A stretch of DNA of 64,000 nt from Sphaerolaimus hirsutus (taxonomy: Eukaryota; Nematoda; Chromadorea; Monhysterida; Sphaerolaimidae). Positions 2,406-44,829 of the stretch are shown piece by piece; position 1 is the first letter of the stretch, and every line of letters starts with the position of its first letter. Both the position numbers and the translations under genes were made by a program. The stretch spans positions 7,331,469 through 7,395,468 of the forward strand of contig OZ038453.1 in NCBI GenBank assembly GCA_964036195.1, given 5' to 3'. Below the pieces are notes generated by a model. That model was not told the origin of the DNA and made no database searches. It worked only from the letters and a program-made list of their open reading frames with translations.

Positions 2406-2815
2406 TCAACTGGTGATTAGTTCTGGCTCGATCGTGGGAAGTTGAGTGGCGAGCTAAGTGTAAAGTGTCAAATGTAAAGTCAAATGCAAAGTAGTGTCAA
2501 ATGCAAAGTAAAGTGTCAAATGTAAAGTCAAATGCAAAGTAAAGTGTCAAATGTGTATCCAAATCTTATTTTTTGGTATCCAAGTCTCATATTTTTGTAT
2601 CCAAATCTTACTTTATGACATGAAATTTGGATAAATAACATAAGATTTGGATACCAAAAATAAGATTTGGATACACAATTGACACTTTACATTACATTTG
2701 GCACTTGACTTTACACTTTACTCTACATTTGACACATTACTTTGCATTTGACTTTACATTTGACACTTGACTTTACACTTTACAGGGCTTGGGACTGCCG
2801 CCAGGAGCATGTCAG
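2406..2815. repeat. Degenerate copy of the CAGTCCC/TGTAAAATG repeat family
   Basis: This stretch is an imperfect inverted repeat of AAAGTGTCAAATGTAAAGTC words with a central ATCCAAATCTTA block, ending in TTTACAGGGCTTGGGACTGCC at 2780-2801. That right end matches the terminal inverted repeat of the intron-forming elements in gene 1. The left end is eroded. No coding potential is seen. Confidence 0.55.
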
Positions 2816-3088: not shown

Positions 3089-5718
3089 TTACAAGCGACA
3101 TATAGTTTGATAGCTATCATTACAATATTCATCATATCGATGTCGTTCATCTTCAATTTCTTCACAATTGTGGACCCCTTCAAAGTAACACTTATTTGAC
3201 AAATTCTTATCTCCAGGAATCTTCACGTTGGTAAACCAGCCCCTGGAATTTACACCCACAACACATGTGATTTCCTTGTCCTGGTTGGCTGGTGGTTTTG
3301 GATCGCCTCTCATAGTGACCTTCAAACCTGCAAATTGCCTGTGAAGTGCCCGGTGATCAGGCTTGATCAGGCTCTGAAGTGTGATCACGAGAGGCACTTC
3401 CAACCGCTTCAGTGCACTTCACGAGCATTTTATTTGCAGTGATCGTTAATCATGTATGTGCATTGTATGCATGATGCCATGATGTACATCATTCAAGAGG
3501 GGAGGGTATTTTTTCCCCAGCTCGAAAACACCTCGGGTATTTCGAGGGGGAGGGTTAATTCAAAAGGGGGGGGATTTCGAGTAAATACGGTAATATGCTC
3601 AACTAAAAAATTTTAAAGCCATTTCTTACCTCCACACTTGGGATGGTTGATGGTATTGGGAGGGTATCCTCCAGGCACATCAAATTTCTCTATTTTGAGC
3701 ACGTCCCCAGGCTGCAACAAATTTTCAGTAACGTTTTATACCAGTCAAGTAAACATGGTGATGTAAGTAACTGACATAGGTAAACTATGTGATAGAAAAG
3801 TGCCATGACAAAATGTCCAAGTGAAATGTGGTGCTGTGCACCAACATATTTACAACTATTTACCTGGCTGGTATAAAATACATGGCCAGAATAGCACCAT
3901 GTGAATGGAAGTGTGAAATGCGTTGAGAATGCATTTACACATTTCACACTCAATGCGTTTCACAGAATGGTAACCATGGTTAGGGTGTCAACTTTCCGTT
4001 TTCCGTTTCCGCTTTCCGCAGGCATATTTTTTTCCGTTTTCGTTCCGTTTTCCGGCTAGTGCAAAGTTCTTCCTTTTCCGTTTTACGTTTCCGTTTTCCG
4101 CTTTCCAAATATTTTTTACCATTTCCGGTTTTCATAACAAAATTTTTTTGTAAACACTGTAGTCACCACGGTGCTTTTCAAAGGAAGCAATGCCATGGCC
4201 CAATTCTGTCACTAGCTGTGGTGAAACGAAACAAACACATTCCGTCCCAGCTGGGTGCGGGATGCAGGGCACACCACTGTCCATGGTGCCCACCCACTGG
4301 CCAGTGGCGCAGTCGCAGTCAATCCGGCAGCTCAGATCCCAGAAATGAAGCCACGATTTTGGCACACACCTGGGAGCAGTCCCAGACCCTGTAAAATGTC
4401 AAATGGCATGCAAAGTGTCATGTGAATGGTTTGCCATTTTACCAAGCATTCTACATGACTTTTGACACTTTGCATGACATTTAACATTTAACAGGGCATT
4501 TTACAGGGTCTGGGACTGGCACCTGCCAGTCACTCTGGCTATAGTCACTTTGGGCCCACGCGTGTGGTTCCCAGCTGGCAATCTGCAGTTTTGGTAGTCT
4601 ATGGTTGTAGTTTTGGGGCCAGTAGTTGTGGGGCCAGTAGTTGTGGGGCCAGTAGTTGAAGGGCCAGTAGTTGTGGGCCCAGTAGTTGTGGGGCCAGTAG
4701 CTGAAGGGCCAGTAGTTGTGGGGCCAGTAGTTGGAGGGCCAGTAGTTGTGAGGCCAGTAGTTGAAGGGCCAGTAGTGGTGGGGCCAGTAGTTGAAGGGCC
4801 AGTAGTTGTAGGGCCAGTATTTGTGGGGCCAGTAGTTGAAGGGCTAGTAGTTGTGGGGCCAGTAGTTGAAGGGCCAGTAGTTGAAGGGCCAGTAGTTGTA
4901 GGGCCAGTAGTTGTGGGGCCAGTAGTTGTAGGGCCAGTAGTTGTAGGGCCAGTAGTTGTAGGGCCAGTAGTTGTGGGGCCAGTAGTTGAAGGGCCAGTAG
5001 TTGTGGGGCCAGTAGTTGAAGGGCCAGTAGTTGTGGGGCCAGTAGTTGAGGGGCCAGTAGTTGAGGGGCCAGTAGTTGTGGTGTCAGTAGTTGTGGGGCT
5101 AGTAGTTGTGGGGCTAGTAGTTGTGGGGCCAGTAGTTGAAGGGCCAGTAGTTGAGGGGCCAGTAGTTGTGGGGCCAGTAGTTGTGGGGCCAGTAGTTGTG
5201 GGGCCAGTAGTTGTGGGGCTAGTAGTTGTGGGGCCAGTAGTTGTGATAGTGCTGGTGGCCCTGGGGGCAGTGTCAGACCCTGTTAAAGACCCACTAAAGT
5301 GTAAACAACTTAATGTAAAATGATAATGTAAAATGTCATATTTATTCAAATCTTATTGTATTGCATCCAAATCTTGTGTTGTTGCATCCAAATTCTACTT
5401 TATCAATAAGATTTACAGATGACACTTAACATGGTGTTTAACATAACACATGACATTTTACAGGGTCTTTTACACTTTACAAGGTTTTTTACATGGTGTG
5501 GGACTGGCGCCTGGTTGTTCCAGTGCTTGTGTTCATTCTGATTGTGTCTATGATGATAGGTAAATCTGTAAAGCAATATTACACTTGTGAGTCGTGTGTG
5601 TGGCTGTTAAAACAACATGGTTTGAAGAGGTACACTCACCTCTAGGAACATATTTTGCGGCTACATCTAGACAATTATCTAGAGCAGTATATCGTTGACA
5701 GATTTGAATATTGTAGTT
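3089..5718 (-). CDS. Gene 1: secreted/mucin-like Cys-rich protein, 5' end missing
   Basis: Six exons were assembled by hand on the minus strand: 5640-5718, 5511-5565, 4523-5260, 4213-4369 (or 4294-4369), 3630-3711 and 3089-3327, with stop TAA at 3089-3091. Frames join perfectly (phases 1, 2, 2, 0, 1) and the total is a multiple of three. Exon 1 carries a CX8C module with the words ALDNC, like the last cysteine exon of genes 2 and 3. Exon 3 encodes about 42 repeats of TTTGP, a likely O-glycosylated mucin stalk. The last three exons give a Cys-containing C-terminal region (about 12 Cys; words DCDCATGQW, PPNTINHPKCG, ITCVVGVNSRGWF) that I do not recognise. Introns 2 and 3 are TIR elements; intron 2 begins GC instead of GT. 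The end of exon 4 is uncertain: CTA|gtgaca at 4213 or TGG|gtgggc at 4294, both in phase 0. Upstream exons, including the signal peptide, were not found. Function is unknown; a secreted or surface role is inferred from the composition and its relatives. Confidence 0.7.
3438..3590. mobile_element. TA-MITE fragment in the last intron of gene 1
   Basis: Right half of a member of the CCGTATTTCCTCGAAATACC family. It ends TTTCGAGTAAATACGG followed by TA at 3591-3592, and it contains the family's internal words (ATGATGTACATCATTC, GGGTATTTCGAGGGGG, GGGTTAATTC). The left half is missing. It lies inside the intron at 3328-3629. Confidence 0.75.
3977..4155. repeat. CCGTTTTCC-rich repeat in intron 4 of gene 1
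   Basis: Begins AGGGTGTCAACTTTCCG and consists of near-tandem CCGTTTTCCGTTTCCG words. It is shared with 29055-29710, 39486-40032 and 59459-59830. Its right end (AAATTTTTTTGTAAACAC) is a mutated version of the GTTGACACC terminus seen in the other copies. It lies in the intron between exons 4 and 5. Confidence 0.65.
4370..4522 (-). mobile_element. Intron that is a 153-bp TIR element (introner-like)
   Basis: On the minus strand the intron starts GTGCCAGTCCCAGACCCTGT and ends ACAGGGTCTGGGACTGCTCC then CAG. The two ends are inverted repeats with core CAGTCCCAGACCCTGTAAAA, so the whole intron is one mobile-element copy. The word CAGGTG occurs at both edges (GGCAG|GTGCC and CCCAG|GTGTG). If this is the target duplication, splicing at CAG|GTG on both sides removes the element plus one duplicate and restores the exon exactly. 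It joins exons in phase 2 and the frame stays open. Related copies lie outside genes at 7719-7826, 7878-8025, 31261-31356, 36812-36936 and 42507-42843. Confidence 0.8.
4523..5260 (-). repeat. 15-bp coding minisatellite (TTTGP repeats), exon 3 of gene 1
   Basis: About 42 tandem 15-bp units (plus strand AGTAGTTGTGGGGCC) between roughly 4610 and 5245, encoding Thr-Thr-Thr-Gly-Pro on the minus strand with Ser, Asn, Pro or Ala variants. The unit is a multiple of three, so copy-number change keeps the frame. The exon is bounded on each side by a TIR-element intron. The opposite strand is also open for 240 codons (VVVGP repeats), a by-product of the repeat. Confidence 0.9.
5261..5510 (-). mobile_element. 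Intron that is a 250-bp TIR element (introner-like, GC-AG)
   Basis: Minus strand: exon ...ACAACCAG, then GCGCCAGTCCCACACCATGT ... AACAGGGTCTGACACTGCCC then CCAG, then exon GGCCACC. The ends are diverged inverted repeats of the CAGTCCCAGACCC family and the interior carries the family's ATTTGGATGCAA and TGTCATG words. The flanking exons (5511-5565 and 4523-5260) join in phase 2 to give an open frame. The donor is GC, probably GT mutated to GC. CCAGG is repeated at both edges, a possible target duplication. Confidence 0.72.
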
Positions 5719-6250: not shown

Positions 6251-7718
6251 TAAATTTACTCTGATTCATTCTCTAGGTAAATGAACGTGCATGGATGTGC
6301 GACGAAAAGTTTGGCTGAAAAATTGACAAAAAATAGAAGCGAGAATTGATAAATGAAACAACATAAATTGTGATAAATGCTGCACAATTTATCAAATAGT
6401 TATGCTAATAATAAGTCTATAACGACATAATTGTACACACAAAATGATTAGCAGCAATGAGCGAATCAATAACAGCTGACACTTCAATTCAAATCACACC
6501 CAAACGGAACGTATTTTATTTACTTTGAGTGGTGCCGCCATAGTTTGTTGTGCGTACATGGTGGCCCAAAAAGTATTTGGTCAACTCTTACGGAATTATT
6601 AACTAATACTGCAATAACTATCAGATCAAAGTAGTAATGATTGCAAAGCAAGTTTTGGAGATTCTAAAATGTTTTTGAAATTTGAAAATTTGGTATTTTT
6701 ATTTCTCCATCAGGACAAAATCTTACAAATCTTCACTTAAAAATCCATAAAACATCGGTGGATGAAAGAGTTCTCTGATCAAGCCATTTTTTGGGCCACC
6801 CCGCATCCACTGCCACTGCAATTTCACTATGGTGACAAATATGTAAAACATTTCGAACCACCCGGTAATAGTGATAGCAAATCATGTGAGTCAAAAACAC
6901 ACACTCGACAGACCACAAAGTATGCGCAGAATCCTACCATAATTTAATGAACAAAATCTTGTGATAAAATTTGTAATTAATTTTTCTATAGTGAAAACAA
7001 AATATTATGATGAAAAAACTTGTAAAATTTTTGGTTCATCATTCAGATGGGTTATGGTAGGTTTCCATACTAAGTGTGATGTCCGCCAAGTATATTTATT
7101 CACATGGAGCTGCAAAAGTCGATATCGATATTATCAAAGAATCAATACTTAAATTGGGTGGGAGGGGTGTTTGGCAGCAATATAGATGAACGGCTCAGTG
7201 CGATGGGATTTAGCGGCGGGGAAAAAATGCAGTGGCTACAGATACGCATGTGCCTCTAAAAGAAGAGCGCCGTTATATTTTATCATCGATTTTTTTACTT
7301 GCCATTTTATTTAGCAAAAATAAATTAGCGGCCGCCGTTTCATCTCAGCGCTAACCAACCCTCAAAGTTGAGGTGTATTTACTCGTGTGTAAATAGATTG
7401 GTGTGCATTTACTCAAATATATGTACAGATTCAATAGTGATTTTTAGTACGCATCCTATTTACTGCAAAATACATTGGACCACATTCTCATTGGGTTGCA
7501 GACCAATCTTAGGCAATGAGTGTGTTATTTCCTAGCCTATGTAGATACGCCGCGCTGCGCATGCGCGGCGATACGCAGCCATCGATGAATTCCGCCAAGT
7601 ATAAGAAAATGATACTTAAAAATTGGGAGAAATCGAAAGAAATTTTTAGGGACGTTGTAATCCTTTGCGTAATTTTGTTCCAGTCTCATGTTACCCTTCA
7701 GATGAATTTTGTCGTTTC
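6251..7718. other. No recognisable gene
   Basis: Mostly unique AT-rich sequence. GTCCGCCAAGTATATTTATTCA near 7080 resembles words at 54968, 58658 and 41311, suggesting an eroded dispersed repeat. A GC-rich patch with palindromic words (GCTGCGCATGCGCGGCG) lies at 7550-7570. No spliced coding frame could be supported. Confidence 0.35.
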
Positions 7719-7826
7719 CAGGGGGCAGTCCCCCAGACCCTGTAAAATTTTGACGAGAATTTTGTAAGACCCTGTGACACCTTGCATGTCATTTGACATT
7801 TTACAGGGTCTGGGACTGCCCCCTGG
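7719..7826. mobile_element. Short TIR element of the intron-forming family
   Basis: CCAGGGGGCAGTCCCCCAGA at the left pairs with TCTGGGACTGCCCCCTGG at the right; inside are GTAAAATTTTG and CATTTGACATTTTACAGGG. It has the same termini as the gene 1 introns but lies outside any recognised gene and lacks a GT at its plus-strand left edge. Confidence 0.75.
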
Positions 7827-7877
7827 ATAAGAAACACGTGCAGAAACACGGCAATGTGCCAGCAAAGTGTTTCTTAT

Positions 7878-8025
7878 CCAGGGGGCAGTCCCAAACCGTG
7901 TAAAATGTAAAATGTCATGCAAATATTAAAAGTCATGTGACTTTTGACACTTTGCAGGGCATTTCACACGACTTTTGACACTTTGCGTGAGATTTGACAT
8001 TGTACAGGGTCTGGGTGTGGCACCA
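7878..8025. mobile_element. Second TIR element of the intron-forming family
   Basis: Begins CCAGGGGGCAGTCCCAAACC and ends GGGTCTGGGTGTGGCACCAG, with TGTAAAATGTCATGC and CACTTTGCAGGG inside. The 50 bp separating it from the element at 7719-7826 begin ATAAGAAACAC and end GTGTTTCTTAT, an inverted repeat, so the two elements form a symmetrical pair. Confidence 0.7.
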
Positions 8026-8129
8026 GTAAGCCAGTGGTGGTCCAAACCATCATTGGATTAAAATCAAAATCTGAAATATAAATGAGGCGTCCATTTAAGG
8101 CTCAAAATTTGGTTTTTTCAAACTGAAGT

Positions 8130-13084: not shown

Positions 13085-16000
13085 ATAATCCTTAAGTGAG
13101 GCCCCCGGGGCTAAAAAATATAAATTGTGATATAATGCATTTGTGGGTTACTGATTACAATGATTTGAAATATGCACTCCATTCTGACAGTACATTACGA
13201 TAACCCTGAAATTGAACCCAAAATGGGGCCAAAATTTTCAAATTGTGAAATGATGCATTGTGGGTTTCTAATTGCACTGATTTGATATATAATGCACTCC
13301 ATTTTGACACTACATTACCATAACCCTGAAAATGAACCACTGGGGCCAAAAACTTTCAATTTGTGAAATGATGCATTTTTGGGTTTCTGGTTGCACTGAT
13401 TTCAAATTTAGGTTTCTGATTGCACTGATTTGATATATGCACTCCATTGACACTACATTACCATAACCTGAAAAATGAACCCATGGGGCCAAATACTTTC
13501 AATTTGAGAAATGATGCATTTTCAGGTTTCTGATTGCACTCATTTGAAATATGCACTTCATTTTGACACTACATTACCATAACCCTGAAAATGAACCACT
13601 GGGGCCAAAAAATTTCAATTTGTGAAATGATGCATTTTTGGGTTTCTGATTGCACTGATTTCAAATTTGGGTTTCTGATTGCACTGATTTGATATATGCA
13701 CTCCATTTTGACACTACATTACCATAACCCTAAAAATGAACCCCCTGGGCCAAAAACTTTCAAACCATAAAATGATGGATTTGTGGGTTTCAGAGTGTAG
13801 CTATTTCAAACATGCCCAGGGCTTAAAAAATTAGAAATTGTGAAATGATTCGATGTGGGTTTCTAATTGCACTGATTTGAAATATGCAATCCATTTTGAC
13901 ACTACATAACCCTGAAAACTACATAACCATAACCCTGAAAATGAACCTCTGGAGCCAAAAACTTTCAATTTGTGAAATCATTCATTTTTGGGTTTCTGAT
14001 TGCACTCATTTGAAATATGCACTTCATTTTGACACTACATTACCATAACCATAAAAATGAACCCCCTAAGCCAAAAACTTTCAAATCATAAAATGATGCA
14101 TTTGTGGGTTTCTGATTGTAGCGATTTCAAATATGCACTCCATTTTGACACTACATTACTAAAACTCTGAAATTGAACCCCTAGACCCAAAAATTTCTAT
14201 TTGTAAAATGATGCATTTTGCAGGTTTCTTATTGCACTGATTTGAAATGACTCAATTTCAACTCTACATTACTGTAAGCCTTAAATTGAACCCATGGGGC
14301 TAATAAATTAGAAATTGTGAAATGATGCATTTGTGGCTTTTTGATTGCCTTGATTTGAAATATGCACTTCATTTTGACACTACATTACCATAACCCTGAA
14401 AATGAACCACTGGGGCCAAAAAATTTCAATTTGTGAAATGATGCATTTTTGGGTTTCTGATTGCACTGATTTCAAATTTGGGTTTCTGATTGCACTGATT
14501 TGATATATGCACTCCATTTTGACACTACATTACCATAACCCTCAAAATGGACCCATGGGGTAAATACTTTCAATTTGAGAAATGATGCATTTTCGGGTTT
14601 CTGATTGCACTCATCTGAAATATGCACTTCATTTTGACACTACATTACCATAACCCTAAAATGAACCCCCTGGGCCAAAAACTTTCAAATCATAAAATGA
14701 TGGATTTGTGAGTTTCTGAGTGTAGTGATTTCAAGTATGCCCAGGGCTTAAAAAATTAGAAATTGTGAAATGATTCAATGTGGGTTTCTAATTGCACTGA
14801 TTTGAAATATGCACTCCGTTTTGACACTACATAACCCTGAAAACTACATAACCATAACCCTGAAAATGAACCTCTGGAGCCAAAAACTTTCAATTTGTGA
14901 AATCATTCATTTTTGGGTTTCTGATTGCACTGATTTCAAATTTGGGTCTATGATTGCACCAATTTGATATATGCACTCCATTTTGACACTACATTACCAT
15001 AACCCTAAAAATGAACCCATGGCGCCAAATACTTTCAATTTGAGAAATGATGCATTTTCGGGTTTCTGATAGCACTCATTTGAAATATGCACTTCATTTT
15101 GACACTACATTACCATAACCCTAAAAATGAACCCCCTGGGCCAAAAACTTTCAAACCATAAAATGATGGATTTGTGGGTTTCAGAGTGTAGCTATTTCAA
15201 ATATGCCCAGGGCTTAAAAAATTAGAAATTGTGAAATGATTCGATGTGGGTTTCTAATTGCACTGATTTAAAATATGCAATCCATTTTGACACTACATAA
15301 CCCTGAAAACTACATAACCATAACCCTGAAAATGAACCTCTGGAGCCAAAAACTTTCAATTTGTGAAATCATTCATTTTCAGGTTTCTGATTGCACTCAT
15401 TTGAAATATGCACTTCATTTTGACACTACATTACCATAACCATAAAAATGAACCCCCTAAGCCAAAAACTTTCAAATCATAAAATGATGCATTTGTGGGT
15501 TTCTGATTGTAGCGATTTCAAATATGCACTCCATTTTGACACTACATTACTAAAACTCTGAAATTGAACCCCTAGACCCAAAAATTTCTATTTGTAAAAT
15601 GATGCATTTTGCAGGTTTCTTATTGCACTGATTTGAAATGACTCAATTTCAACTCTACATTACTGTAAGCCTTAAATTGAACCCATGGGGCTAATAAATT
15701 AGAAATTGTGAAATGATGCATTTGTGGCTTTTTGATTGCCTTGATTTGAAATATGCACTTCATTTTGACACTACATTACCATAACCCTAAAAATGAACCC
15801 CCTGGGCCAAAAACTTTCAAACCATAAAATGATGGATTTGTGGGTTTCAGAGTGTAGCTATTTCAAATATGCCCAGGGCTTAAAAAATTAGAAATTGTGA
15901 AATGATTCGATGTGGGTTTCTAATTGCACTGATTTGAAATATGCAATCCATTTTGACACTACATAACCCTGAAAACTACATAACCATAACCCTGAAAATG

Positions 16001-16563
16001 AACCTCTGGAGCCAAAAACTTTCAATTTGTGAAATCATTCATTTTCAGGTTTCTGATTGCACTCATTTGAAATATGCACTTCATTTTGACACTACATTAC
16101 CATAACCATAAAAATGAACCCCCTAAGCCAAAAACTTTCAAATCATAAAATGATGCATTTGTGGGTTTCTGATTGTAGCGATTTCAAATATGCACTCCAT
16201 TTTGACACTACATTACTAAAACTCTGAAATTGAACCCCTAGACCCAAAAATTTCTATTTGTAAAATGATGCATTTTGCAGGTTTCTTATTGCACTGATTT
16301 GAAATGACTCAATTTCAACTCTACATTACTGTAAGCCTTAAATTGAACCCATGGGGCTAATAAATTAGAAATTGTGAAATGATGCATTTGTGGCTTTTTG
16401 ATTGCCTTGATTTGAAATATGCACTTCATTTTGACACTACATTACCATAACCCTGAAAATGAACCCCCAGGGCCAAAAATTTTCAAATCATAAAATGATG
16501 TGTTTGTGGGTTTCTGATTGTAGCGATCTCAAATATGCACTCCATTTTGACACCACATTACTA
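13085..16563. repeat. Satellite array inside Helitron A (unit about 115 bp)
   Basis: Tandem units carry GGGTTTCTGATTGCACTGAT, TATGCACTCCATTTTGACAC, TACATTACCATAACCCTGAA, and ACTTTCAATTTGTGAAATGA. Units differ and are arranged in a higher-order pattern: the variant with CTCTACATTACTGTAAGCC recurs 668 bp apart (15651 and 16319) with the intervening variants repeated in order. The corresponding array in Helitron B (about 48830-50340) is shorter. No coding. Confidence 0.9.
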
Positions 16564-16564
16564 A

Positions 16565-17229
16565 AATTTTAACTAGTATGTAACAAAACGGTTTCGCCTT
16601 GAACCCAAAGACCGTTTTTTCAACACCAAGGCCCAAGGCTCATCAGTTTGGCAGCACCTGGTGCGGCCTAGAAACACTCTACCTAAACATCCGACCCAAA
16701 AAAACGTCCAAAGTAAAAAATATACGAAAACCCACCACATTGCTTCCTCCCCCAGCGGGGCTGCTGTTGTTTGACGCCATGCGCGGCCGCTTGAAGCTTC
16801 TAGAGTTGGTATTCGCGCCACGCTGTACGTTGCTGCCAGCGCGTCCACGTCCAGAGTTGAAATTCGGTCGCATCTGTATATCGACCAGTATTTTCACTAG
16901 GCTTCCTTAAACACACGTGAAAGTAGTATTTATGTGTCAACAAACCAACACTCAAGTAATCCTTGCGCTTTTACAGCTTTAGGATGTAGTCCTAACCATA
17001 CAGAGCAAGCGAAGGAAAAAACGAAGTTTTTTATTTTTATTTTGTGCAACTCAGTCGTACCAGTATTTCCGGAAAATGGAAACGAAACAGATTAGATACT
17101 GTAATTTTTACACATGACATCACGGGCTATAGCATCACCTTTTCTAGGAAATTTTCCACTGTCTTTAGGTCATTCAACCCAAGTTTTCTAATTAGCATTT
17201 GTTTTCCATTATAAAATCTGTGGAATGCC
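16565..17229 (-). repeat. Downstream pLTR of the Penelope-like element
   Basis: Direct repeat of 21570-22230, starting AATTTTAACTAGTATGTAAC and including the last 103 bp of ORF2. It carries the hammerhead core words CTCATCAG and GGTTTCGCC (plus strand), but here the left neighbour is satellite DNA, so the ribozyme's third stem cannot form. Confidence 0.88.
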
Positions 17230-19934
17230 CGTAATATGTCCTTAAGTTCAAAGTTATTTCCAAGTAATGTTTCAAACAGTTCTCTAACGACAGGGACAAA
17301 TCTATCCAAAGTACTACTTGTCCTAGCTAGGCGTACCAAACCACCAATTACCACAGTATTAAGTAATCGTGATGAAACGTTAGAGTCTCTTTGAATTAGT
17401 TTTACCACAGTAAAATTGAAAAGTCGTCTTTTATCGAAATTACTGTACTCTAGTGTTTCACCCCTGAAATCCAATTCTACGTCTAAAAATGGACACAGAC
17501 CTGTATCTGGGTCTGATGCTCTTTCCAGAGGCAACTCAGTGGGATATATTTGCATCGCATCTTGCAAGAAGTCAGAGTATTCAACAGCCAGACAATCATC
17601 CACATATCTGTAAATGTTGTTAACTTTATGTATACCCGGACTATTAATATTTGCTCTAACATACTTATATTCAATCATTGCGAGTGTCAAATTTGCCAGT
17701 GCCGGTGAGTGGGCACCCCCTGCGGGTATCCCGCATGTTTGTTGAAAAATAAGTCCCGCAAATTCAATGTAGCTCTCCCTAATGCTTAACTCAACACATT
17801 CCAAGAGTTCAAGTTTACTTAATGTCAAAATTGCTTTCTTTTTAGCAAAAGTATCCACCGATATATGTCGAGTAAACACATTAACAAAATCTGATTTAAT
17901 CAAAAGTGAGACAGCGTCCTTGACACTACCCATCATAACATCCGGAGGTAATTTGGGAAATAAGGTTGTAAAATCAGCAGTATATGCTATATTTACCTTT
18001 AATCCAGACCACTTCTCAAACTGTGAAATCGCCTCCAGTGAATTATCAACCATCCAATAATGTCGCACCCCTGTCCGCTCAAATATGACAGCACAGTATG
18101 ATCTGAGCATTTTTAAGAGCGTTTGTAGTATATTAGACACAAGTAGGCATAAGGGTTTAGTGCTCGATTTACTAGCACCACTTACAAAGCGGTATTTATA
18201 AGGCGATTTATGAAGTTTCGCCGTCCAAAAAAGCAGCGGAAGTGTTTCCGTAAAAAATCTTTCCCCATATGCGTATCTTTTACAAATGTTTCGGTGTCTC
18301 TTAATCAAATTTGGCCACTGCGTACCCTTACAACCAATCAGCTTATAGCTAACAGATTCACCAAACCTACTTTCCATAAAATTGTAACCCAATTCACGTG
18401 CAAGTACCTCAAGATAGTATTTGTCGCATATAAATGCGAAATTAGATGACGCTTTATCCACTGGGACTATAAAATATTCATCATGTATCTTATTCAAATC
18501 TATCCAGCAATCTGAATAGTTAATAATTTTACTGTCCTCCCCAGTGGGTAGCTTAAATATATGATCTCGCAGTATCTTTTTTACCTTGCTGACAAATTCT
18601 TGGACAAAATGTCCATTTCCTACTTTCTTTTTCAAATACGACAGGAGTCCATTTAACCCCATAACATAAGCATTAAATGCCTCACCTCTATTATCCGGTT
18701 TGGGCAGTCTAAATTTGCTGCCCATCCCAAATAGCTGTTGTAGTTTCCGATTCTGCACGAATTTCCTGTCACCTGTAAAAACATGTCCATAAGCATTCAA
18801 ACAGTATGCAGATGTATCACATGTGCACCTCCTTTCCAGCACACGTTTCAACTTTTCCATATCCAAATCTCGCAGCCGTTTAGTATAGTTGCACAATTTT
18901 AAAAAAGTGGGGGTACCGTATTTAAACGTTACAGATACATTATGTATCTCCCGCCACATATCAGGCGGTAAGGTATTCAAAACCAACGGATTTCTCAGTA
19001 CATATTTCATGTTTACCATGTCACACACTTTATTTTCAAACTTCACTATCATTCTGTAACCAGGTGTATTTATTGGGCGATTAGTTACCGTCGAATCGAT
19101 AAATGTCAATATTTCAGAAAATTTCCTAATAGCAGAACTAAGATTATGCCTACAGTGTGCGTAGGCGCCTAACCAGTCTGAATTTCGGGTTTGAGTTATA
19201 AGTCTGGTAAGCCGCCTATAAATAAAATATTCCGAACTTCCATTCAAATCAAATAAAATCGAACAAATATCACCTTGTGTCTTACCCTCTCTCTTCCCAG
19301 CACCATGTTTCCTAGGACGCCTAGGCACTTTTATACAAAAATACGGACAAAATTTCATTCTGTCAAAATTTGGAAAAATCGAACTTATATTACCGATGCC
19401 AATGATATTATCATTCAACCCAAATGGATGTACTGTATTCAAGACCAACATATATATTTTCTCGATCTGTCGTCGATTTTGATTGCTGTTGTCACATGTG
19501 TAGACAATCCTACACCGAAAATTATCAATTGTGCAATTACCGTTGTTGAAATGCTTATAAATAAGTTGCTGACTTTTATTGTCGCGAATGTGTCGTAAAT
19601 GTTCCAACATCCGCACTCTAAATTTTCTACCTGTTTCACCGACATATTGCACACCACAGCAGTTACAGCTAATCAAATATATTACGTTGGCTTGATTACA
19701 GTCTAAACAACTACCACTTGGGCAGGTGCCAAACTTTCTACCCGTAATCGTACTTTCAAATTCCTGAGTGAATTCGATATACTTACAAATAGAACAATTA
19801 ACCCGTACACACCTAACCAAATTGGCAGTACCATTTATTTCGGTATATTTAAATTTTACCGGGTCAAAAGTATCTAAAATCAAAACCTCACCACGATTTA
19901 TATGATTAGTTGTCGCAGGTGATTTACTGTCCAT
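17127..19934 (-). CDS. PLE ORF2: GIY-YIG endonuclease plus reverse transcriptase
   Basis: 935 codons, ATG at 19934, stop near the downstream pLTR. The N-terminus has Cys pairs (C42/C47/C50, C71/C76/C79, C90/C92/C93) and a GIY-YIG nuclease core at about residues 83-185 (VIYLISC, QYVGETGRKFRVRMLEH). The RT follows: VPVDKASSNF at about 490, KLHKSPYKYRFVSG at about 573, TADFTTLF at about 653 (catalytic Asp), IPAGGAHSPALANL at 736 and YRYVDD at 775-780. Canonical Penelope proteins have the nuclease at the C-terminus; the N-terminal order places this with the permuted group described from algae and invertebrates (Chlamys/Naiad-type). The protein would nick the target and copy element RNA there. All catalytic motifs are present and the frame is intact, so activity is plausible. 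Confidence 0.92.
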   Translation of the reverse strand: MDSKSPATTNHINRGEVLILDTFDPVKFKYTEINGTANLVRCVRVNCSICKYIEFTQEFESTITGRKFGTCPSGSCLDCNQANVIYLISCNCCGVQYVGETGRKFRVRMLEHLRHIRDNKSQQLIYKHFNNGNCTIDNFRCRIVYTCDNSNQNRRQIEKIYMLVLNTVHPFGLNDNIIGIGNISSIFPNFDRMKFCPYFCIKVPRRPRKHGAGKREGKTQGDICSILFDLNGSSEYFIYRRLTRLITQTRNSDWLGAYAHCRHNLSSAIRKFSEILTFIDSTVTNRPINTPGYRMIVKFENKVCDMVNMKYVLRNPLVLNTLPPDMWREIHNVSVTFKYGTPTFLKLCNYTKRLRDLDMEKLKRVLERRCTCDTSAYCLNAYGHVFTGDRKFVQNRKLQQLFGMGSKFRLPKPDNRGEAFNAYVMGLNGLLSYLKKKVGNGHFVQEFVSKVKKILRDHIFKLPTGEDSKIINYSDCWIDLNKIHDEYFIVPVDKASSNFAFICDKYYLEVLARELGYNFMESRFGESVSYKLIGCKGTQWPNLIKRHRNICKRYAYGERFFTETLPLLFWTAKLHKSPYKYRFVSGASKSSTKPLCLLVSNILQTLLKMLRSYCAVIFERTGVRHYWMVDNSLEAISQFEKWSGLKVNIAYTADFTTLFPKLPPDVMMGSVKDAVSLLIKSDFVNVFTRHISVDTFAKKKAILTLSKLELLECVELSIRESYIEFAGLIFQQTCGIPAGGAHSPALANLTLAMIEYKYVRANINSPGIHKVNNIYRYVDDCLAVEYSDFLQDAMQIYPTELPLERASDPDTGLCPFLDVELDFRGETLEYSNFDKRRLFNFTVVKLIQRDSNVSSRLLNTVVIGGLVRLARTSSTLDRFVPVVRELFETLLGNNFELKDILRAFHRFYNGKQMLIRKLGLNDLKTVENFLEKVML

Positions 19935-20205
19935 GCCCCACCTATGGCAAATGGACAGGATACGTGATACCTATTGTCCGGGGGCTGCCCGGATTTTTTG
20001 CGGCCGTATCGAACTAAATAGTTCTGCCACATGCCCACAGTTGGGTACATATCAACCCCCAGCTGCGGCACAGAAAAACGAAAAAAACAAAGCTGCATGC
20101 AGCTCATGAACACGTAACTTAAAAGAATCCTAATCACTCGCCCTACTTACCACCCGTGGAAGAGCGGAATAACTGCAGAAAAAACACATTCGGACGGCAT
20201 ATCAA

Positions 20206-22230: not shown

Positions 22231-22479
22231 ACCCTGATAATGAACCCCTGGGCACAAAAACTTTCAATTTGTGAAATGATGCGTTTGTGGGTTTTTTATT
22301 GCAGTGATTTGAGATGTGCACTCCATTTCTACTCTACATTACCATAACCTTTTAAGTCTAACCCTTGGGGCTAAAAAATTGAAAATTGTGAATTGATGCA
22401 TTTGTGGATTGATGATAGTGATTTTTTGAAATATTCATACCATTTTCACACTACATTACCATAAACCTGAAAATGAGTT

Positions 22480-22875
22480 TACGGGAGTTTCCAAATTAGG
22501 GGCTGAGTTTATGGGAGTTTCCAAATTAGGGGCTGATTTTAAGGGAGTTTCCAAATTAGGGGCTGAGTTTATGGGAGTTTCTAAATTAGGGGCTGAGTTT
22601 ATTGGAGTATCCAAATTAGGGCTGAGTTTACAGCAGTTTCCAAATTATGGGTTGAGTTTACAAAAGTTTCCAAAATTGGGGGCTGAGTTTATGGGAGTTT
22701 TCAAATTAGAGGCTGAGTTTATGGGAGCTTACAAATAAGTGGCTGAGTTTATGGGAGTTTGCAAGTTAGGGGCTGAGTTTATGAGAGTTTGCAAGTTAGG
22801 GGCTGAGTTTATAGGAGTTTCCAAATTAGGGGCTGAGTTTACAGGAGTTTCCAAACTAGGGGCTGTGTTTACAGG
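22480..22875. repeat. 30-bp minisatellite in Helitron A
   Basis: Around a dozen units with GAGTTTATGGGAGTTTCC and AAATTAGGGGCT. A few related units also lie at 12890-13070, near the Helitron's 5' end. The matching block in Helitron B is 50810-51245. Open frames on both strands (KLGAEFMGVS and its antisense) are periodic artefacts. Confidence 0.88.
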
Positions 22876-22881
22876 ATTTAG

Positions 22882-23400
22882 AGGGGGTCCCCATGGGGTG
22901 CCATTTTTGGGGGGTCTCCAGGGGGTGCCATTTTCTGGAGGTACATATGGGGGTGCCATTTCAAGGGGGTCCACATAGGGTGCCATTTTTTGGGTGGTCC
23001 CCAGGGGTGCCATTTTTTGGTGGTCCTCAGGGGGGTGCTATATTTTTTTTGCAGGGGGGTCCTAAGGGGGTGCCATTTTGGGGTGGTCCCCAGGGGGTGC
23101 CATTTTTGGAGAGTCCCCAGGGGGAGCCAACTTTGGGTGGGTCCCCAGGGGGTGCTATTTTTGTGGGGGTTCCTAGGGGTTGCCATGTTTGGGGGGTCCC
23201 CAGGGGGTGCTATTTTGGGGGGTCCCAAGGGGGTGCCATTTTTGGGGGGTCCCTAAGGGGTGCCATTTTTCGGTGGTCCTCAGGGGGTGCCATATTTGTG
23301 GGGCCCTAGGGGGTCTCATTTTTGGGCGGTTCCCAGGGGGTGCCACTTTTGGGGGGTTCCCCGGGGGGTGCCATTTGGAGGGGGGTCCCCATTGGGGTGT
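22882..23400. repeat. GGTGCCATTTTTGGGGGG minisatellite in Helitron A
   Basis: About 19 units of roughly 27 bp (GGTGCCATTTTTGGGG plus GGTCCCCAGG). Dense G-runs could form quadruplexes. Matching block in Helitron B: 51252-51770. Open frames of 79-138 codons on both strands are repeat artefacts. Confidence 0.88.
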
Positions 23401-23437
23401 CAGTTTTTGCAAGCCTCTGAGTAGTGGGTACCTATAG

Positions 23438-31260: not shown

Positions 31261-31356
31261 AGGTGCCAGTCCCAGACCCTGTAAAATGCCCTGTCAAATG
31301 TCAAACATACGTTTGACATTTTACTGGGCATATACAAAGTCTGGGACTGCACCCAT
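31261..31356. mobile_element. 96-bp TIR element of the intron-forming family
   Basis: CAG|GTGCCAGTCCCAGACCCTG at the left and GTCTGGGACTGCACCCATG at the right; the centre is a perfect TGTCAAACATACGTTTGACA palindrome. On the plus strand it keeps the donor-like CAGGTG, but the acceptor position reads CATG rather than CAG. No exon was recognised around it. Confidence 0.75.
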
Positions 31357-35228: not shown

Positions 35229-36404
35229 GGAGGCATGGCGACTCACTACAGGGTGGGTCGCCCTATATGCAACAATTTTTTGCCACGATTTCAGTGTCCC
35301 AAACAAGTACACCACCCACTTGATTAGCTACACTAAAGGGGCTGTATCTCCAGTTGTGGGGGTGGTAGAAAGCTAAAATTTTGGGTGTATCTTGGCAACA
35401 TCCACCCCTATTATACTCCAGTAGGGCAGCTCCCGACGACCCACTACACTTTGTGCTGCTTTATATAAAGTTGTTTTTTTATTTAAATGACTCAAGTGTC
35501 CCAAGCAAGTTCACCACCTAAACAAATTAAAAATTTGTTTTGACAACATACCTTCTATAAAAACTGAATCGGGTTTTAACCCTAGTTCTGCTAATTAAAT
35601 TTTTTTCCTTTGTTTAGCCACGCCCACCATAAATGGCAGACCAAAAATTTCACTTTAAACCAATTTTTTGTTCTACACTTTAAAAGTTGGTTTACAAAGT
35701 TCAGTAGAAAAAGGTCTAAGGTTCAAAGTTACGTAAACAACATGACCTCCAAAATGGCGACATATGTAAATTTATTTGGGTGGAATGAAAAAGTGAAAAT
35801 TCTGCAAAATTTTGTTCCTGCAATGACATCATTATGACATCATAGAATTCACCCCAAATAAATTTCCTTATGTTGCCATTTTGGAGGTCATGTTGTTTAC
35901 ATAACTTTGAACCTTAGACCCTTTTCTACTGCACTATGTAAACCAACTTTTAAAGTGTGGAACAAAAAAGTGGTTTACGGTGAAATTTTTGGTCTGCCAT
36001 TTATGGTGGGGGTGGCTAAACAAAGGAAAATAATTTAATTAGCAGAACTAGGGTTAAAACCTGATTCAGTTTTTATAGAAGGTATGTTCTCAAAACAAAT
36101 TTTTTATTCATTTAGGTGGTGAACTTGCTTGGGACACTTGACTCATTTAAATAAAATAAAAACTTTATACAAATCGGCACAAGGTGTAGTGGGTCGTCGG
36201 GAGCTGCCCTACTGGAGTATAGTAGGGGTTGGTGTTGCCAAGATACTCCCAAAATTTTAGCTTTCTACCACCCCCACAACTGGAGATACGGCCCCTTTAG
36301 TGTAGCTAATCAAGGGGGTGGTGTACTTGTTTGGGACACTGAAATCCTGGCAAAAAATTTTTGCCTATAGGGCGATCCACCCTGTAGTGAGTCGCCATGC
36401 CTCC
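35229..36404. repeat. 1.2-kb foldback, same family as 1-561
   Basis: GGAGGCATGGCGACTCAC at 35229 pairs with GTGAGTCGCCATGCCTCC at 36387-36404, and pairing continues to a centre near 35816 with few gaps (for example CCAGTAGGGCAGCTCCCGAC with GTCGGGAGCTGCCCTACTGG). The centre CCTGCAATGACATCATTATG matches 285-305. No open frame of note. Confidence 0.9.
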
Positions 36405-37177
36405 GCCATGGAAAGTGTTTAAAATATCATGTCTGCCGAGTTTACTTATGTATGCATTTTCACAACAAAAAAAATATTCTGAAAGGAAAAAAGGCGGAGT
36501 TGCGTACATGCGAGATAATGTTGTTTTTTTCTTATTTTTTTGTATAATTGTTATTTTATTAACAATTATGTCATGATGGAGTTTTTCGGTCAGAAAAATG
36601 CACAGCATTTCGTCCACGAGTATAACAGATTTATATTTTTATTAAATACATGTATAATACACTATTTTTGTTGGGGTTTTAATTGAATAAAAACAAAAAC
36701 CTATCAGGCTTTTTAGGACATAAACTGGGTTTTCAAAAGAGAATGTATGGTTTTGCAGAGCAGCTGCAAAGTGAATTCAATTGTGACAGTACCCAGTAAC
36801 CAGTAAAATGCAGGTGCAACTCCCAGACCCTGTAAATGTAAAATGGCATGCAAAGTGTCAAAAGTCATGTAAATTTTTAATTTTTAATTTTTTTTCTGTC
36901 AGTCATTTGACATTTTACAGTGTCTGGGAGTCACCTATGAACAGCGTTTCTCCGGTATTTACTTCACAGAACATCATTTCTACTCTCAGACAATAAAGTA
37001 ATCACTGATCACACAACAGTTTAATATAACTCCAGACTTTCACCATACAATTTTCCTTGTATCAGATGGATTTATTGTTGGAAGATATGGGCAACTATCA
37101 GAGTCCACTCCAAAAACTGCAATGATGGCATATTAATGTATTTTTGCACAATTTATGTTATACCTTGCAGTGCTAAG
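36405..37177. repeat. Dispersed repeats including a 125-bp TIR element
   Basis: 36425-36630 contains ATGTCTGCCGAG and GTCATGATGGAGTTTTTC with CAGAAAAATGCACAGCA, shared with 41257-41325. At 36812-36936 a short element with ends AGGTGCAACTCCCAGACCCT and TGTCTGGGAGTCACCT belongs to the intron-forming family. No gene is seen. Confidence 0.6.
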
Positions 37178-40169: not shown

Positions 40170-41203
40170 CAGGGTTGGTTTTATAAAAATCATTTGTATA
40201 CAAATTGTATAAAAATTGTATAAAAATGTATTTTATTTGTATTTTATTCTTGTTTCATTTTATTTTATTTTATTTTATTCCAAAATCATAATAAAATAAT
40301 AAAATGGAACCATTTTACAAAAATTTTACAAAAATGTACAGAAATTTTACAAAAAATCAGAATCTTGCATGCAAGGCCAGAAAAACTTTATAATTAGACC
40401 TAAACATGAAAAACGGGCGACAAATCTTTCCATTACTTTACAGAACTTACATGCAGTAGGTAGTTGCATGCAATAGGTAGCAAGTGTAAAGTAACAATAA
40501 TTGATAATAATGGTTTGCATTTTCAGTAGAAGGTGTACTGGAGTGTGCGTGGACATTTGTAAAATGTCATGCAAAGTGTCAATTGTCATGATGACTGTAA
40601 AGTAAAGAGTCATTTGACATCTCAAATGTCAAACAAATTGTCAATTGTCATGATAAATGTCATGAAGTGTCAATTGTGTATCCGAATATTGTGTTTTTGT
40701 ATCCAAATCTTATGTTTTCGTATCCAGGTCTTACATTTTGTATCCAAATGTTGACATAAGATTTGGATACAGAACCAACAACAAGATTTGGATACAAAAC
40801 AAGATTTGAATACAATTTGCTTGACAGTTGCCATTTTAATTGTTATTTGTCATGACAATTGACACTTTACTTAACCTTTGTCATGACAATTTATGCTTTG
40901 CATGACATTTCATATGACATTTGACACTTTACAGGGCTTGGGACTGATCCAGCTCCATGGATAAACATGTTGAACCATAAGCAAGAAAAGAAAAATTTTA
41001 CAAAAATTATGAATTTTTATACAATTTTTACAAAAATATGAATTTGTATACAATTTTACAAAATTTTTACAAAAATTCGAATTTTTATACAATTTTTATT
41101 TTTATTTTGAAATTTTCCATTTTATTTTATTTTATTTTATTCTCAAATTTTCCATTATATTTTTATTTTATTTTTATTTTTTTCTGAGATTTTGCCAACC
41201 CTG
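40170..41203. mobile_element. hAT-like non-autonomous element, copy 2
   Basis: Starts CAGGGTTGGTTTTATAAAAA, ends TTTTGCCAACCCTG, with a perfect 8-bp duplication GTGACAGG at 40162-40169 and 41204-41211. AT-rich subterminal arrays as in copy 1; the core is the inverse of copy 1's core. The flanking repeat continues on both sides, confirming insertion into an older repeat. Confidence 0.9.
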
Positions 41204-42122: not shown

Positions 42123-44829
42123 TCACTGGCACAGTTCCAACGTAAGACACAAATGTGTGTGCTTGTACAGCGTCAAGTCAGCAAGTTCACTAACACAATT
42201 GTCCAGTTGATCAACATCATGACATTGCCTTGTGCAATGGTAATAATCTAGTTCTACCACTGGTTGCGACAATTGGCACCATAATTTGCACAGCTGCGCA
42301 ACAAGGAGTTTTTGATTAGAGAGTATTCATGGTGTTTTGCTTTGTTTGAATGTAAATCAGTCAAACAAAGACAGCAAGATATTGGGTTGTAGTGTGTCTG
42401 CTCTGAGTAGTGCTGTGAACAGTTTTGGAAAAGTGCCAGGACTTTGGCGCCAAGCCGCACAAGCGCCATGGCGCTTTTCGTACACCCAGCGCCAAGCGCC
42501 GATGTCTCCTGGAGGCACTCCCAGACCGTGTAAAAGACCCTGTAAAGTTGCATGTGTATCCAAATCTTGTTGTATCGTATCCAAACTTATATTTGTGTAT
42601 CCAAATATTATGTATAAATGTACAATTTGGATACAAAACATAAGATTTGGATACGATAAAAAAAATTGGGATACATATGACACTTTACAGAGCCTTTTAC
42701 ATGACATCTGACACTTTACAGGGTATTTTACATGACACATGACATTTTACAGGGTCTTTCACATGACACATGACATGTTACAGGGCCCTTGACACTTTAC
42801 AGGGCCTTTTACAGGGTCTGGGAGACTGGGAGTGACACCAGGGCAAAGCAGTGCTAAGACCACCATGGTTCTTTTTGCTTTGGCGCTACACCACTAAGTT
42901 CCAGCGCCAGGTTTTTTTGTTCCCCGCTATGGCTATGGCGCTTTTTGGTTTAGCACTGGCACCATGTGCTAGACTAGCACCATCCAAAAGTGCCATGGCA
43001 CTTTTCCATCACTAGCTGTAAAGTGTCTTCACACTGAAACCTTGATGCTTCACCCACCGCATGCTAACACTTTGTTTATAGTTTGGGCAAAATTTAAAAT
43101 TGTTGACACACCTCTTTCACATTTATTTTTGTTGTTGTAGTAGTCGTGGTTGTTGGTGTGTTTGTCATTGGTTTGCCAGGGGTGCTTTTGTATATAACAT
43201 AAAATGAACATGCAGTGGGGTATGATCCAAGTTCTGTGTGGGATATTTAGGCACCAAATTTCCTCAATTAAAGCAACCCCATCTTGAATACCCCCCCCCA
43301 CAGAAACACCCTGGGTCTGAGTTAGAATAGCGACTATGAAATTAAATTTATTATGTGTTAGGTTTGATGAGCAGAAATCTTTTCAAATTGTATTTCAAAA
43401 TACATGTGCATTTGTGAATGCATGTTTGTAATTCTTAAAACCCACTGGGTGAACTTTAGAGGAAATATGGTAAATAAAATAAATACATTTGTGAAGTAGT
43501 GGATAGTGTTATATTGCGCAAAACAAAAATATTAACCTTCTGCAATTTTGCTCAAACACATTTTGTGACAAACCGCACCCTCACGTTCACAAAATTTCCT
43601 GCACATATCCTGTGATTTGTGTGATCCATGGATATAATGAAAGTAATCACTCAAGCTATTTATTACTTTCTTACTTTTTATCAAATTCTTAAGAATGAAA
43701 CAGAAATACACTGGGTGGTCTGAATCTGGGATATAATCATATTGTTTCTGCAATAGTGATGATAGAATTGATGATATTCAAATCAATTGAATATTGAAAT
43801 TGAATGTGCCAGCTTTGATGAACAGAAAGCTTTTCATATTGTATTTAAAAATACATGTGCATTTGTGAATACACTATGAGAGTAGAAACTTTGAATGAAA
43901 ATAGGGGAAAATCACCCAAACTTTGCTACACATTGGTGGCTGATTTGGAGGGCCGCCCCCCAGCCCCCCAACATTTTGGAGGCCTCTATAAGTATGTGCA
44001 GATGCATACTCAGCTGTCCAAGGAGTCCAATATTTACTATTTCTTTATGTTTGAATTGAATTGAACACACTGCTTTCATTTATAAAGTGTTGTTTTTAGC
44101 GCATCACCAACATTGTTGTGTAAGCAGTGATTGATGGTAAAAGCACCAACATTGTTGTGTAAGCAGTGATTGATGTTGATTGGTAAAAGTTATCCAAATT
44201 AAATGTCTATCTCACATTATTGACACAATGAATATAACGAATCTGGTTGCAAACCAGAAAAATAACTCATCCACTTAAATGGTTTCCCCTTCAAAAAAAG
44301 ACACAAATACAATCCCATTATTCCAGGATGTATGGTATTTCCTACAGCAGAGGGAAATAATGTGAAAACAAGTATAACATAACTTACACACTGTAAACCC
44401 TTATTGCTCACAAGTGCATCACATTTTGCCTTACACTCATTTCCTTCTTCAGAGCACTCAATCAATTTGCATAGCTGTATTGTATGAAAATGTAAAAATT
44501 AATTGTTCATCACTAAACAGTAGAGATATTATAAATTGCCACAGTTCACTGTCCTCTACTGCCTCAAATTTAAAATGTTTTCATGTTTAGTCATATTTAT
44601 GATCACTAAAGCAATGTTCAATTGAGTCAATATAAACTGACAAACTCAAATATTTCTAAAAAATACAAAATTTTGTAACTTTCTGGCAGTACAACCATTT
44701 TGCAGACAACATACACTACCAGAAAACAAAAAATATAATAATTACCAAATTCACCTTTATAAAGTATCCTGTACTGCTTTGAAACAATGCAATTAGCAAT
44801 ACAGTGAGAAGCAGAAAGCATTTTGCCAT
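42123..44829 (-). CDS. Gene 2: small secreted Cys-rich protein
   Basis: Minus-strand exons 44755-44829, 44388-44474, 43537-43609 and 42123-42253 give 121 residues with phases 0, 0, 1. Exon 1 is a signal peptide (MAKCFLLLTVLLIALFQSS). Exon 2 has Cys at 2, 7, 14, 18 and 29 of its 29 residues; exon 3 has C-x3-C-x6-C-x3-C; exon 4 has C-x3-C-x8-C (CTRQCHDVDQLDNC). Splice sites: AAG|gtgaat, aatacag|CTATGC, TGT|gtaagt, atcacag|GATATG, GAAG|gttaat, ggtag|AACTAG. Exons 1-3 match gene 3 in length class, phase and Cys spacing. Exon 4 might instead end at DNC|gttagt, so the C-terminal tail (with two more Cys) is uncertain. The protein is likely exported and disulfide-bonded; I do not recognise the family. 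Introns contain a degenerate MITE and a TIR element of the intron-forming family. Confidence 0.68.
42507..42843. mobile_element. TIR element of the intron-forming family inside gene 2's last intron
   Basis: CCTGGAGGCACTCCCAGACC at the left, CTGGGAGTGACACCAGG at the right; interior ATCCAAATCTTGTTGTATC and repeated TTTACAGGG/GACACTTTAC. Read on the minus strand its edges are CTG|GTGTCACT and CTCCAG|GAG, so a donor-like GT and acceptor-like AG are again present. It sits in a GCGCCATGGCGC repeat (42430-43012), within the intron from 42254 to 43536. Confidence 0.72.
43136..43204 (-). other. Thr-rich open stretch, possible exon remnant
   Basis: The minus strand reads TPGKPMTNTPTTTTTTTT before a possible donor GAAAGAG|gtgtgt. 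It recalls gene 1's Thr-rich exon and would need phase 2, but no exon that could feed it in phase was found. It could equally be an ACN microsatellite. Confidence 0.2.
43253..43476. mobile_element. Degenerate TA-MITE in gene 2 intron 3
   Basis: CCAAATTTCCTCAATTAAAG and TTAGAGGAAATATGG are eroded family ends; CTTGAATACCCCCCCCCACA lies inside. About 70 bp near 43353-43425 (GAGCAGAAATCTTTTCA ... GTGCATTTGTGAATGC) is repeated at 43806-43872 in the next intron. Confidence 0.5.

Follow-up and report, generated by a model that had tools for sequence, protein, structure and literature searches.

The source of new introns is an old question. In the portions of Gozashti et al. (2022; PMC9860276) that deal with DNA-transposon introners, these elements are multi-copy, many families carry terminal inverted repeats (TIRs) and/or short target site duplications (TSDs), and the edges of the element are the edges of the intron. 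In the class of their Figure 2C the element brings a 5' splice site of its own and co-opts the one at 3'. Few introners have been reported in animals; among animals and land plants that account names two groups only, both of them animals. Here we describe a putative introner family in the nematode Sphaerolaimus hirsutus, based on a 64,000-nt stretch of contig OZ038453.1 of assembly GCA_964036195.1 (C4:7331469-7395468, hereafter the window; genome of 348.5 Mb in 762 contigs) in which two introns of a mucin-like gene coincide with complete short inverted-repeat elements. The STK32 relatives point to an animal host: the best is a metagenomic protein (57%), the nearest with a name come from nematodes (about 51-54%), and those of other animals follow closely. 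Introners may already be known from the group to which the host belongs. The original prediction, made from the letters of the window, was that these elements form an introner system that made both introns, and the element edges, their exact excision and an empty site in a paralogue support it. Since the edges at which coding sequence is interrupted are exact, conserved proteins are restored by excision and an empty site is available, we consider that the family probably acts as an introner and put the probability that it is a real introner family at roughly 0.9.

The family would share with the introners of that account (PMC9860276) its multiple copies, its TIRs and short TSD, the coincidence of element and intron edges, the supply of one splice site by the element and of the other by the target, a mostly unchanged mRNA length, the use of some GC donors and its presence in an animal. 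Unlike the example of Figure 2C, which has a 4-bp TSD and no TIR, it has a CWG TSD and TIRs. It is predicted from its sequence to represent the introner mode of intron gain, in the class with an element-borne 5' splice site and a co-opted 3' splice site.

With respect to the transposons themselves, the NuwaI group of the PHIS (PIF/Harbinger, ISL2EU, Spy) superfamily is defined by a 5'-CWG-3' target duplication, was confined to animals in the survey concerned and has TIRs that mostly start with GGG (PMC4482050). The elements described here likewise have a CWG duplication and a right end that starts with GGGG, whereas their left end starts with GTG and the copies are non-autonomous; the passages of that survey on NuwaI make no mention of intron formation. 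A further parallel is offered by the copepod Eurytemora affinis, whose many idiosyncratic introns look recently acquired and have an obligate AG before unusual donors (PMC5714493). In the relevant parts of that account, unlike here, GA and GG serve as the unusual donors, and the introns are not linked to any named transposon. Our literature search, in which preprints and most subscription papers were not covered, returned no paper on a Harbinger-type or CWG introner.

Two introns bounded by complete elements

The window gene is encoded on the minus strand and continues upstream of position 5718. Two of its introns, E1 and E2, had been predicted to begin and end at the TIRs of an element that occurs at least five more times outside the gene, and both statements were confirmed. 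Read on the minus strand, the edges are CAG^GTGCCAGTCCC...GGGACTGCTCCCAG^GTG for E1 and CAG^GCGCCAGTCCC...GACACTGCCCCCAG^GG for E2 (the caret marks the inferred splice boundary). The 20-nt terminus has 15 matches in the window (at most three mismatches, both strands) and none in 100 shuffles; four of these matches are the ends of E1 and E2 (4377, 4499, 5268, and 5487) and 11 lie elsewhere. As RNA, both introns fold into hairpins, in a calculation made without a shuffle control.

Other parts of the original prediction required revision. Removal of the element together with one target copy holds for E1, although the duplicated target is the 3-bp CWG rather than CAGGTG: CAG is the copy removed, and the GTG that follows belongs to the element on one side and to the exon on the other. 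Splicing at CAG^GTG likewise applies to E1, whereas E2 starts with GC. The exons were said to join in phase with a total length divisible by three. The junctions at E1, at E2 and before the last exon are in phase, but the total is not established, as the gene extends upstream of 5718 and no good in-phase donor was found for the step from the exon at 4369 to that at 3711.

A family with asymmetric ends and a CWG target duplication

A genome-wide search for the terminus, which had been proposed as a check, returned 10,794 forward and 10,825 reverse matches (21,619 in total, at most two mismatches), and the reversed-pattern control returned 0 and 0. By this count the family has on the order of ten thousand copies, not all of which are introns; exact matches to CAG followed by the first 17 nt of the element number 744 in the genome. 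Viral contigs searched for the exact terminus yielded none, and scans of the window with Rfam (gathering threshold) and for tRNA genes gave no matches.

Copies were then characterized in two samples. The first comprised 68 loci (eight from the genome search and 60 fetched in list order) and is biased toward copies with one perfect end on a single chromosome. Both ends were found in 65 of these loci, of which 61 were left once near-duplicates had been removed. The second comprised 20 loci picked because their left end has an exact CAG; 17 of them, including the near-copies L146 and L149, had both ends, and the right flank of these 17 was CAG as expected in nine, a shifted CAG in five, CTG in two and CAT in one. 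The ends of the sampled copies are asymmetric, with GTGCCAGTCCC on one side and GGGACTGCCCC on the other, and the consensus behind CAG, with copies oriented by their GTGC end, is GTGCCAGTCCCAGACCCTGTAAAATG...CATTTTACAGGGTCTGGGACTGCCCC. Element length has a median of 180 bp and a range of 113-412 bp (82 copies, both samples). In the first sample, where orientation was set by the left end, the first two bases of that end are GT in 58 of 65 copies and GC in four. The flanks average 49% G+C as compared with 38% for the window, in keeping with insertion in genes.

Across the sampled copies the target duplication measures 3 bp and reads CWG. The 3-mers that flank an element on its two sides are equal in 38 of 65 copies (four near-duplicates included), as opposed to 20.7 by random pairing (standard deviation 3.2, maximum 32, 5000 pairings), and 35 of the 38 equal 3-mers are CWG (CAG/CAG in 21 and CTG/CTG in 14). 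A 6-bp CAGGTG duplication, an 8-bp hAT-type duplication and CACTA-type ends were judged by eye and rejected, and the copies support CWG. One locus, L151 (C2:4280023-4280822), has an unusual right end: the element is preceded by GCCGTTCAG, which recurs at that end and makes a repeat longer than CWG.

It is highly probable, as far as sequence can tell, that the elements act as introners and are short non-autonomous miniature inverted-repeat transposable elements (MITEs) from a NuwaI-type family, PIF/Harbinger-like and targeting CWG. The TIR starts with GGGGCAGTCCC at the right end as compared with GTGCCAGTCCC at the left, and in NuwaI it is only usually GGG. At least 163 DDE_Tnp_4 matches are present in the genome. 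Two points count against the assignment. The 3-mers are unequal in 10 of the 45 copies that are flanked by CWG on both sides, L095 among them. Moreover, the readable transposase copy, a Harbinger-type match at C4:7407225-7407857 (within L034) that contains stops and sits between exons of a paralogue of the window gene (B', see below), lacks flanking family termini, and no autonomous partner was found. Because this copy is not bounded by family termini, membership in NuwaI rests on the duplication.

Paralogues share both introns and provide an empty site

Close paralogues of the window gene were identified in tandem on contig C4 (A1, A2, and B') and on contig C122. E1 is present at the same place in all five copies, with lengths of 153, 171, 186, 172, and 676 bp (in B' it holds an extra insertion of about 0.5 kb). 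Each of the five contains in-frame stops and has kept GT and AG. Exon conservation begins directly after the terminal CAG of E1, and the 135 coding nucleotides that follow are 98-100% identical to the window copy across the five. E2 also recurs at the same place in the C122 paralogue, where it is 282 bp long (250 bp in the window) with the donor GCACCA; the donor is thus GC in both. The presence of E1 in all five copies and of E2 in at least two indicates that both introns predate duplications of the window gene. No frameshift was detected in the exons compared among the five copies, and the ratio of nonsynonymous to synonymous differences (pN/pS) is 0.26-0.70 in nine of ten pairs (pairs with B' without the last exon), values that amount to weak constraint.

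In L040, a distant paralogue that lies some 0.9 Mb away, a copy of the family is present elsewhere in the same domain, with the edges CAGTTGCAG^GTGCCAGTCCC...GGGACTGGCCCCCAG^GATT. This putative intron (4595-4721 of the locus, 127 bp) interrupts the protein at SCR^IHCDCATGQWVG; exact excision yields SCRIHCDCATGQWVG, and the window gene reads SCRIDCDCATGQWVG there, unbroken. The element in L040 and the uninterrupted window gene together suggest that the family made introns independently within one gene family. The empty site between these paralogues shows what we read as an insertion into coding sequence, and we regard it as the decisive evidence. The comparison with an orthologue lacking the introns, which had been proposed for E1 and E2, could be made on paralogues in part: the L040 site is empty in the window gene, but E1 has no clean empty site. 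Within the close cluster no copy is empty at E1, and L040 lacks an element there in an alignment that is gapped, so that the comparison at this site is not clean.

Copies interrupting other conserved genes

To evaluate copies outside this gene family, the element and one target copy were removed exactly and the joined peptide was compared with Pfam and with Protein Data Bank (PDB) chains. The joined peptide of L008 aligns with FBXL2 (F-box/LRR-repeat protein 2, PDB) over 106 residues with no gap and with the junction after residue 40; its best Pfam leucine-rich repeat (LRR) stretch lies behind the junction. L151 aligns with PFAS (phosphoribosylformylglycinamidine synthase, PDB) without a gap over approximately the first 60 residues, the junction falling after residue 27, and an AIRS_C Pfam match covers the junction. 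Further on there is a surplus of 16 residues. Pfam matches also cover the junction in L159 (VWA) and, by five residues only, in L147 (Glyco_transf_7N), and an AMP-binding match runs across the junction in L095, which has CTG on the left and CAG on the right.

A survey of protein kinase genes provided copies picked without knowledge of the element. Among 40 stretches fetched, 25 had a gap between neighboring Pkinase matches (L101-L116, L121-L127, L129, and L140). Two of these 25 short kinase-exon gaps are exact elements: in L115 the joined peptide reads YCRQILQ^GLAYLHEQ and has no gap at the junction relative to MAP3K2 (PDB), and in L104 the element lies in phase within the activation segment. 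In a third, L121, the element lies inside a larger gap of 396 bp. L107 and L129 leave 35-44 model positions unaccounted for, and there may be more than one intron in each. Among the kinase stretches, L130 has a variant terminus pair outside a gap, and L108, L128, and L134 have single weak matches (5-6 mismatches). Putative introns of the family are thus found in FBXL-like, PFAS-like, MAP3K-like, other kinase, VWA, and AMP-binding genes as well as in the mucin-like gene and its distant paralogue.

The larger gap of L121 is what would be expected if ordinary transposons had landed in introns that already existed. As a general account this is very improbable. In E1, E2, L040, L104, and L115, similarity reaches both splice boundaries as inferred from coding sequence, no part of a former intron is kept, and the element ends together with CAG are themselves the predicted splice sites; the empty site between paralogues likewise argues for insertion into coding sequence.

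Tests across samples and alternative interpretations

In the first sample, 15 of the 19 CAG/CAG copies were tested in sense orientation and recovered FBXL2 across the junction (L008), cadherin beside it (L066) and SIRT6 (PDB) beside it (L084). The CTG/CTG copies yielded only sub-threshold matches in sense orientation (12 of 14 tested), all in L068, and only a zinc finger, in L063, in antisense (11 of 14 tested); of the 28 other copies L095 alone was tested. A CAG/CAG copy in antisense, L077, gave GDT1 beside the junction. In the second sample, where 10 of 17 were tested in sense orientation, seven had a Pfam match (E <=0.1), four of them over the curated cut-off and three covering the junction (L151, L159, and L147), and the antisense control, the ten longest of 17 joined peptides, had no Pfam match. 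We also compared the length of the joined open frame among three shifts. The exact joint ranked first without a tie in 9 of 19 CAG/CAG copies in sense and 8 of 19 in antisense, in 4 of 14 and 3 of 14 copies of the CTG classes, and in 7 of 28 and 7 of 28 of the others. GC-rich flanks are open in several frames, which makes this test weak, and homology was therefore relied on.

Several of our findings weigh against the introner interpretation. A recognizable protein was obtained for only three of the 15 CAG/CAG sense copies of the first sample, one of them (L008) across the junction. The 12 without one imply that the majority of copies do not have to be introns in genes that are conserved. The alignment of L104 is gapped at or beside the junction, the best PDB match of L095 has a one-residue gap beside it, and one pair of paralogues has a pN/pS of 1.41. 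The donor GTGCCA of E1 is weak and GCGCCA of E2 weaker. In addition, the terminal CAG of E1 is preceded, at a distance of 19 nt, by an acceptor that looks stronger, TTTTACAG. Counting against use of this inner TTTTACAG, one nucleotide is missing between it and the terminal CAG in A1, A2, and B', which would produce a difference in frame if the inner site were the acceptor.

An alternative donor, CCT^GTAAAA, lies 18 nt inside the element, and elements might be spliced at such internal sites, each insertion then leaving a scar of six residues. GTAAAA within the terminal repeat is a plausible donor, a shift of 18 nt preserves the frame, and the edge of E2 offers GC only in both copies read. Even so, we find this unlikely, given that the junctions relative to FBXL2, PFAS, and MAP3K2 are gapless where six added residues would break conserved sequence, and given the preponderance of GT over GC at the left end in the first sample.

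A final set of observations concerns L063 (C1:7144650-7145469), which is located within zinc-finger coding sequence and is oriented such that GG, and no GT, follows CAG. This copy may be unspliced, may use an inner donor or may use a GG donor of the kind described, in the relevant part of that account, for Eurytemora affinis (PMC5714493). A copy in coding sequence that is unable to use GT is what would be predicted if the elements were unspliced exonic insertions in broken alleles or pseudogenes. For the family as a whole we hold this to be very improbable, though marginally less so than insertion into pre-existing introns. E1 is retained in five gene copies whose compared exons lack frameshifts, the FBXL- and PFAS-like genes have conserved coding sequence in frame before and after the element, and stops occur in the frames read through those elements that were examined, so that unspliced copies would truncate the protein.

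Proposed mode of intron gain

Under the introner interpretation, an element would transpose into an exonic CAG in sense orientation, with a transposase presumably supplied by an autonomous relative. Placed behind CAG, the first two bases of the element (GT, or GC in E2) would serve as the 5' splice site; for the 3' splice site, AG would come from the duplicated CAG that follows the C-rich end of the element. The spliceosome would then remove the element and one target copy precisely and leave the host protein unchanged. E1 and E2 would have arisen in this way before duplications of the mucin-like gene, and an independent copy would have become an intron in the distant paralogue. Because the CWG target includes the CAG of the protosplice site and the terminus bears a donor, a sense insertion in an exonic CAG would be a ready-made intron. 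The donor, we infer, owes its origin to a change at the left end. It is somewhat more probable than not that this is an animal genome amid invasion by introns of one NuwaI/Harbinger-like MITE family, in which a change of the left terminus from an ancestral GGGGC to GTGCC gave the 5' splice site, with hundreds to thousands of new introns possible and some perhaps still polymorphic.

In this genome copies are well preserved, insertions into conserved genes are exact, an empty site is available between paralogues, and the proposed mechanism is simple and tied to the target trinucleotide. How introns are gained, how splice sites are recruited and what becomes of weak GT and GC donors can be studied here in an animal.

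The window gene and other features of the window

The exons of the window gene, the parts of E1 and E2 and the other family members in the window are compiled in Table 1. The exon between E2 and E1 has long open frames in all three minus-strand frames within the window, such that openness by itself is weak proof there. In paralogue A2 the mucin exon is 7.7 kb long and open for 2576 amino acids (aa) in the TTTGP frame, and the other two frames of the same strand contain 36 and 20 stops; on the antisense strand, two frames remain open over 1171 and 1229 aa. The 15-bp coding minisatellite comprises about 42 units in the window (4607-5245), extends over about 7.7 kb in A2 (C4:7312804-7320540) and has few units in the C122 paralogue (near position 91600). 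No useful relative of the window gene was found in Pfam, in PDB or, with only the C-terminal part as query, in a database of 5.8 billion proteins, and the gene may be lineage-specific.

Table 1. Coordinates of the window gene, its element-derived introns and other family members in the window.
Feature	Position	Strand	Remarks
Last exon	3089..3327	-	low end is the stop codon
Exon	3630..3711	-	PGDVLKIEKFDVPGGYPPNTINHPKCG; donor GGAG^GTAAGA
Cysteine-rich exon	4228..4369	-	CVPKSWLHFWDLSCRIDCDCATGQWVG...; five copies compared over the coding part; 3' end provisional
E1, putative intron formed by a whole element	4370..4522	-	153 bp (element and one copy of CAG); donor CAG^GTGCCA; acceptor CTGCTCCCAG^GTG
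E1, downstream CAG target copy	4370..4372	-	supplies the predicted AG acceptor; CWG duplication from sample
E1, acceptor-side (right) terminal repeat core	4377..4396	+	20/20
E1, donor-side (left) terminal repeat core	4499..4518	-	20/20
E1, upstream CAG target copy	4523..4525	-	last 3 nt of exon; CWG duplication from sample
Exon between E2 and E1	4523..5260	-	15-bp minisatellite coding a TTTGP mucin-like repeat, then start of cysteine-rich domain
E2, putative intron formed by a whole element	5261..5510	-	250 bp; donor CAG^GCGCCA (GC); acceptor CTGCCCCCAG^GG
Exon upstream of E2	5511..5565	-	DLPIIIDTIRMNTSTGTT, then split codon
Exon	5640..5718	-	NYNIQICQRYTALDNCLDVAAKYVPR; ends at AG^GTGAGT; gene goes on upstream
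Family copy	7728..7818	+	termini at 7728 and 7799, outside window gene
Family copy	7886..8019	+	CAG on either flank
Family copy	31267..31349	+	left CAG, right CAT
Family copy	36818..36932	+	left end CAG^GTGCAACTCCC; right flank other than CAG
Family copy, longer	42516..42826	+	left CTG, right CAG
Related longer element	2459..2797	.	variant end CAGTCCCAAGCCCTGTAAAG; left end not recognized
Related longer element	40562..40946	.	variant end CAGTCCCAAGCCCTGTAAAG

Two of the family copies are adjacent (7716-8033) and have a common flank, GTTTCTTATCCAG, that is inverted between them, as if by a fold-back rearrangement. Longer relatives at 1105-1520, 2459-2797, and 40562-40946 contain inner GTATCCAAATCTTATG repeats, and their ends are variants, CAGTCCCAAGCCCTGTAAAG for example.

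Outside the family, an unbroken open reading frame of 947 aa on the minus strand (17130-19970) has a GIY-YIG match on its N-terminal side and a reverse transcriptase match further on, both below the curated Pfam cut-off, and is predicted to be a Penelope-like retroelement with permuted domains. Elements of this kind go by the name Naiad, which may apply here. Two related pairs of tandem arrays are also present, one at 13107-16561 and 48829-50332 (units of about 116 bp) and the other at 22474-23409 and 50810-51775 (units of about 30 and 27 bp). Lastly, a large fold-back at 35229-36404 has arms of 558 nt that are 93% complementary.

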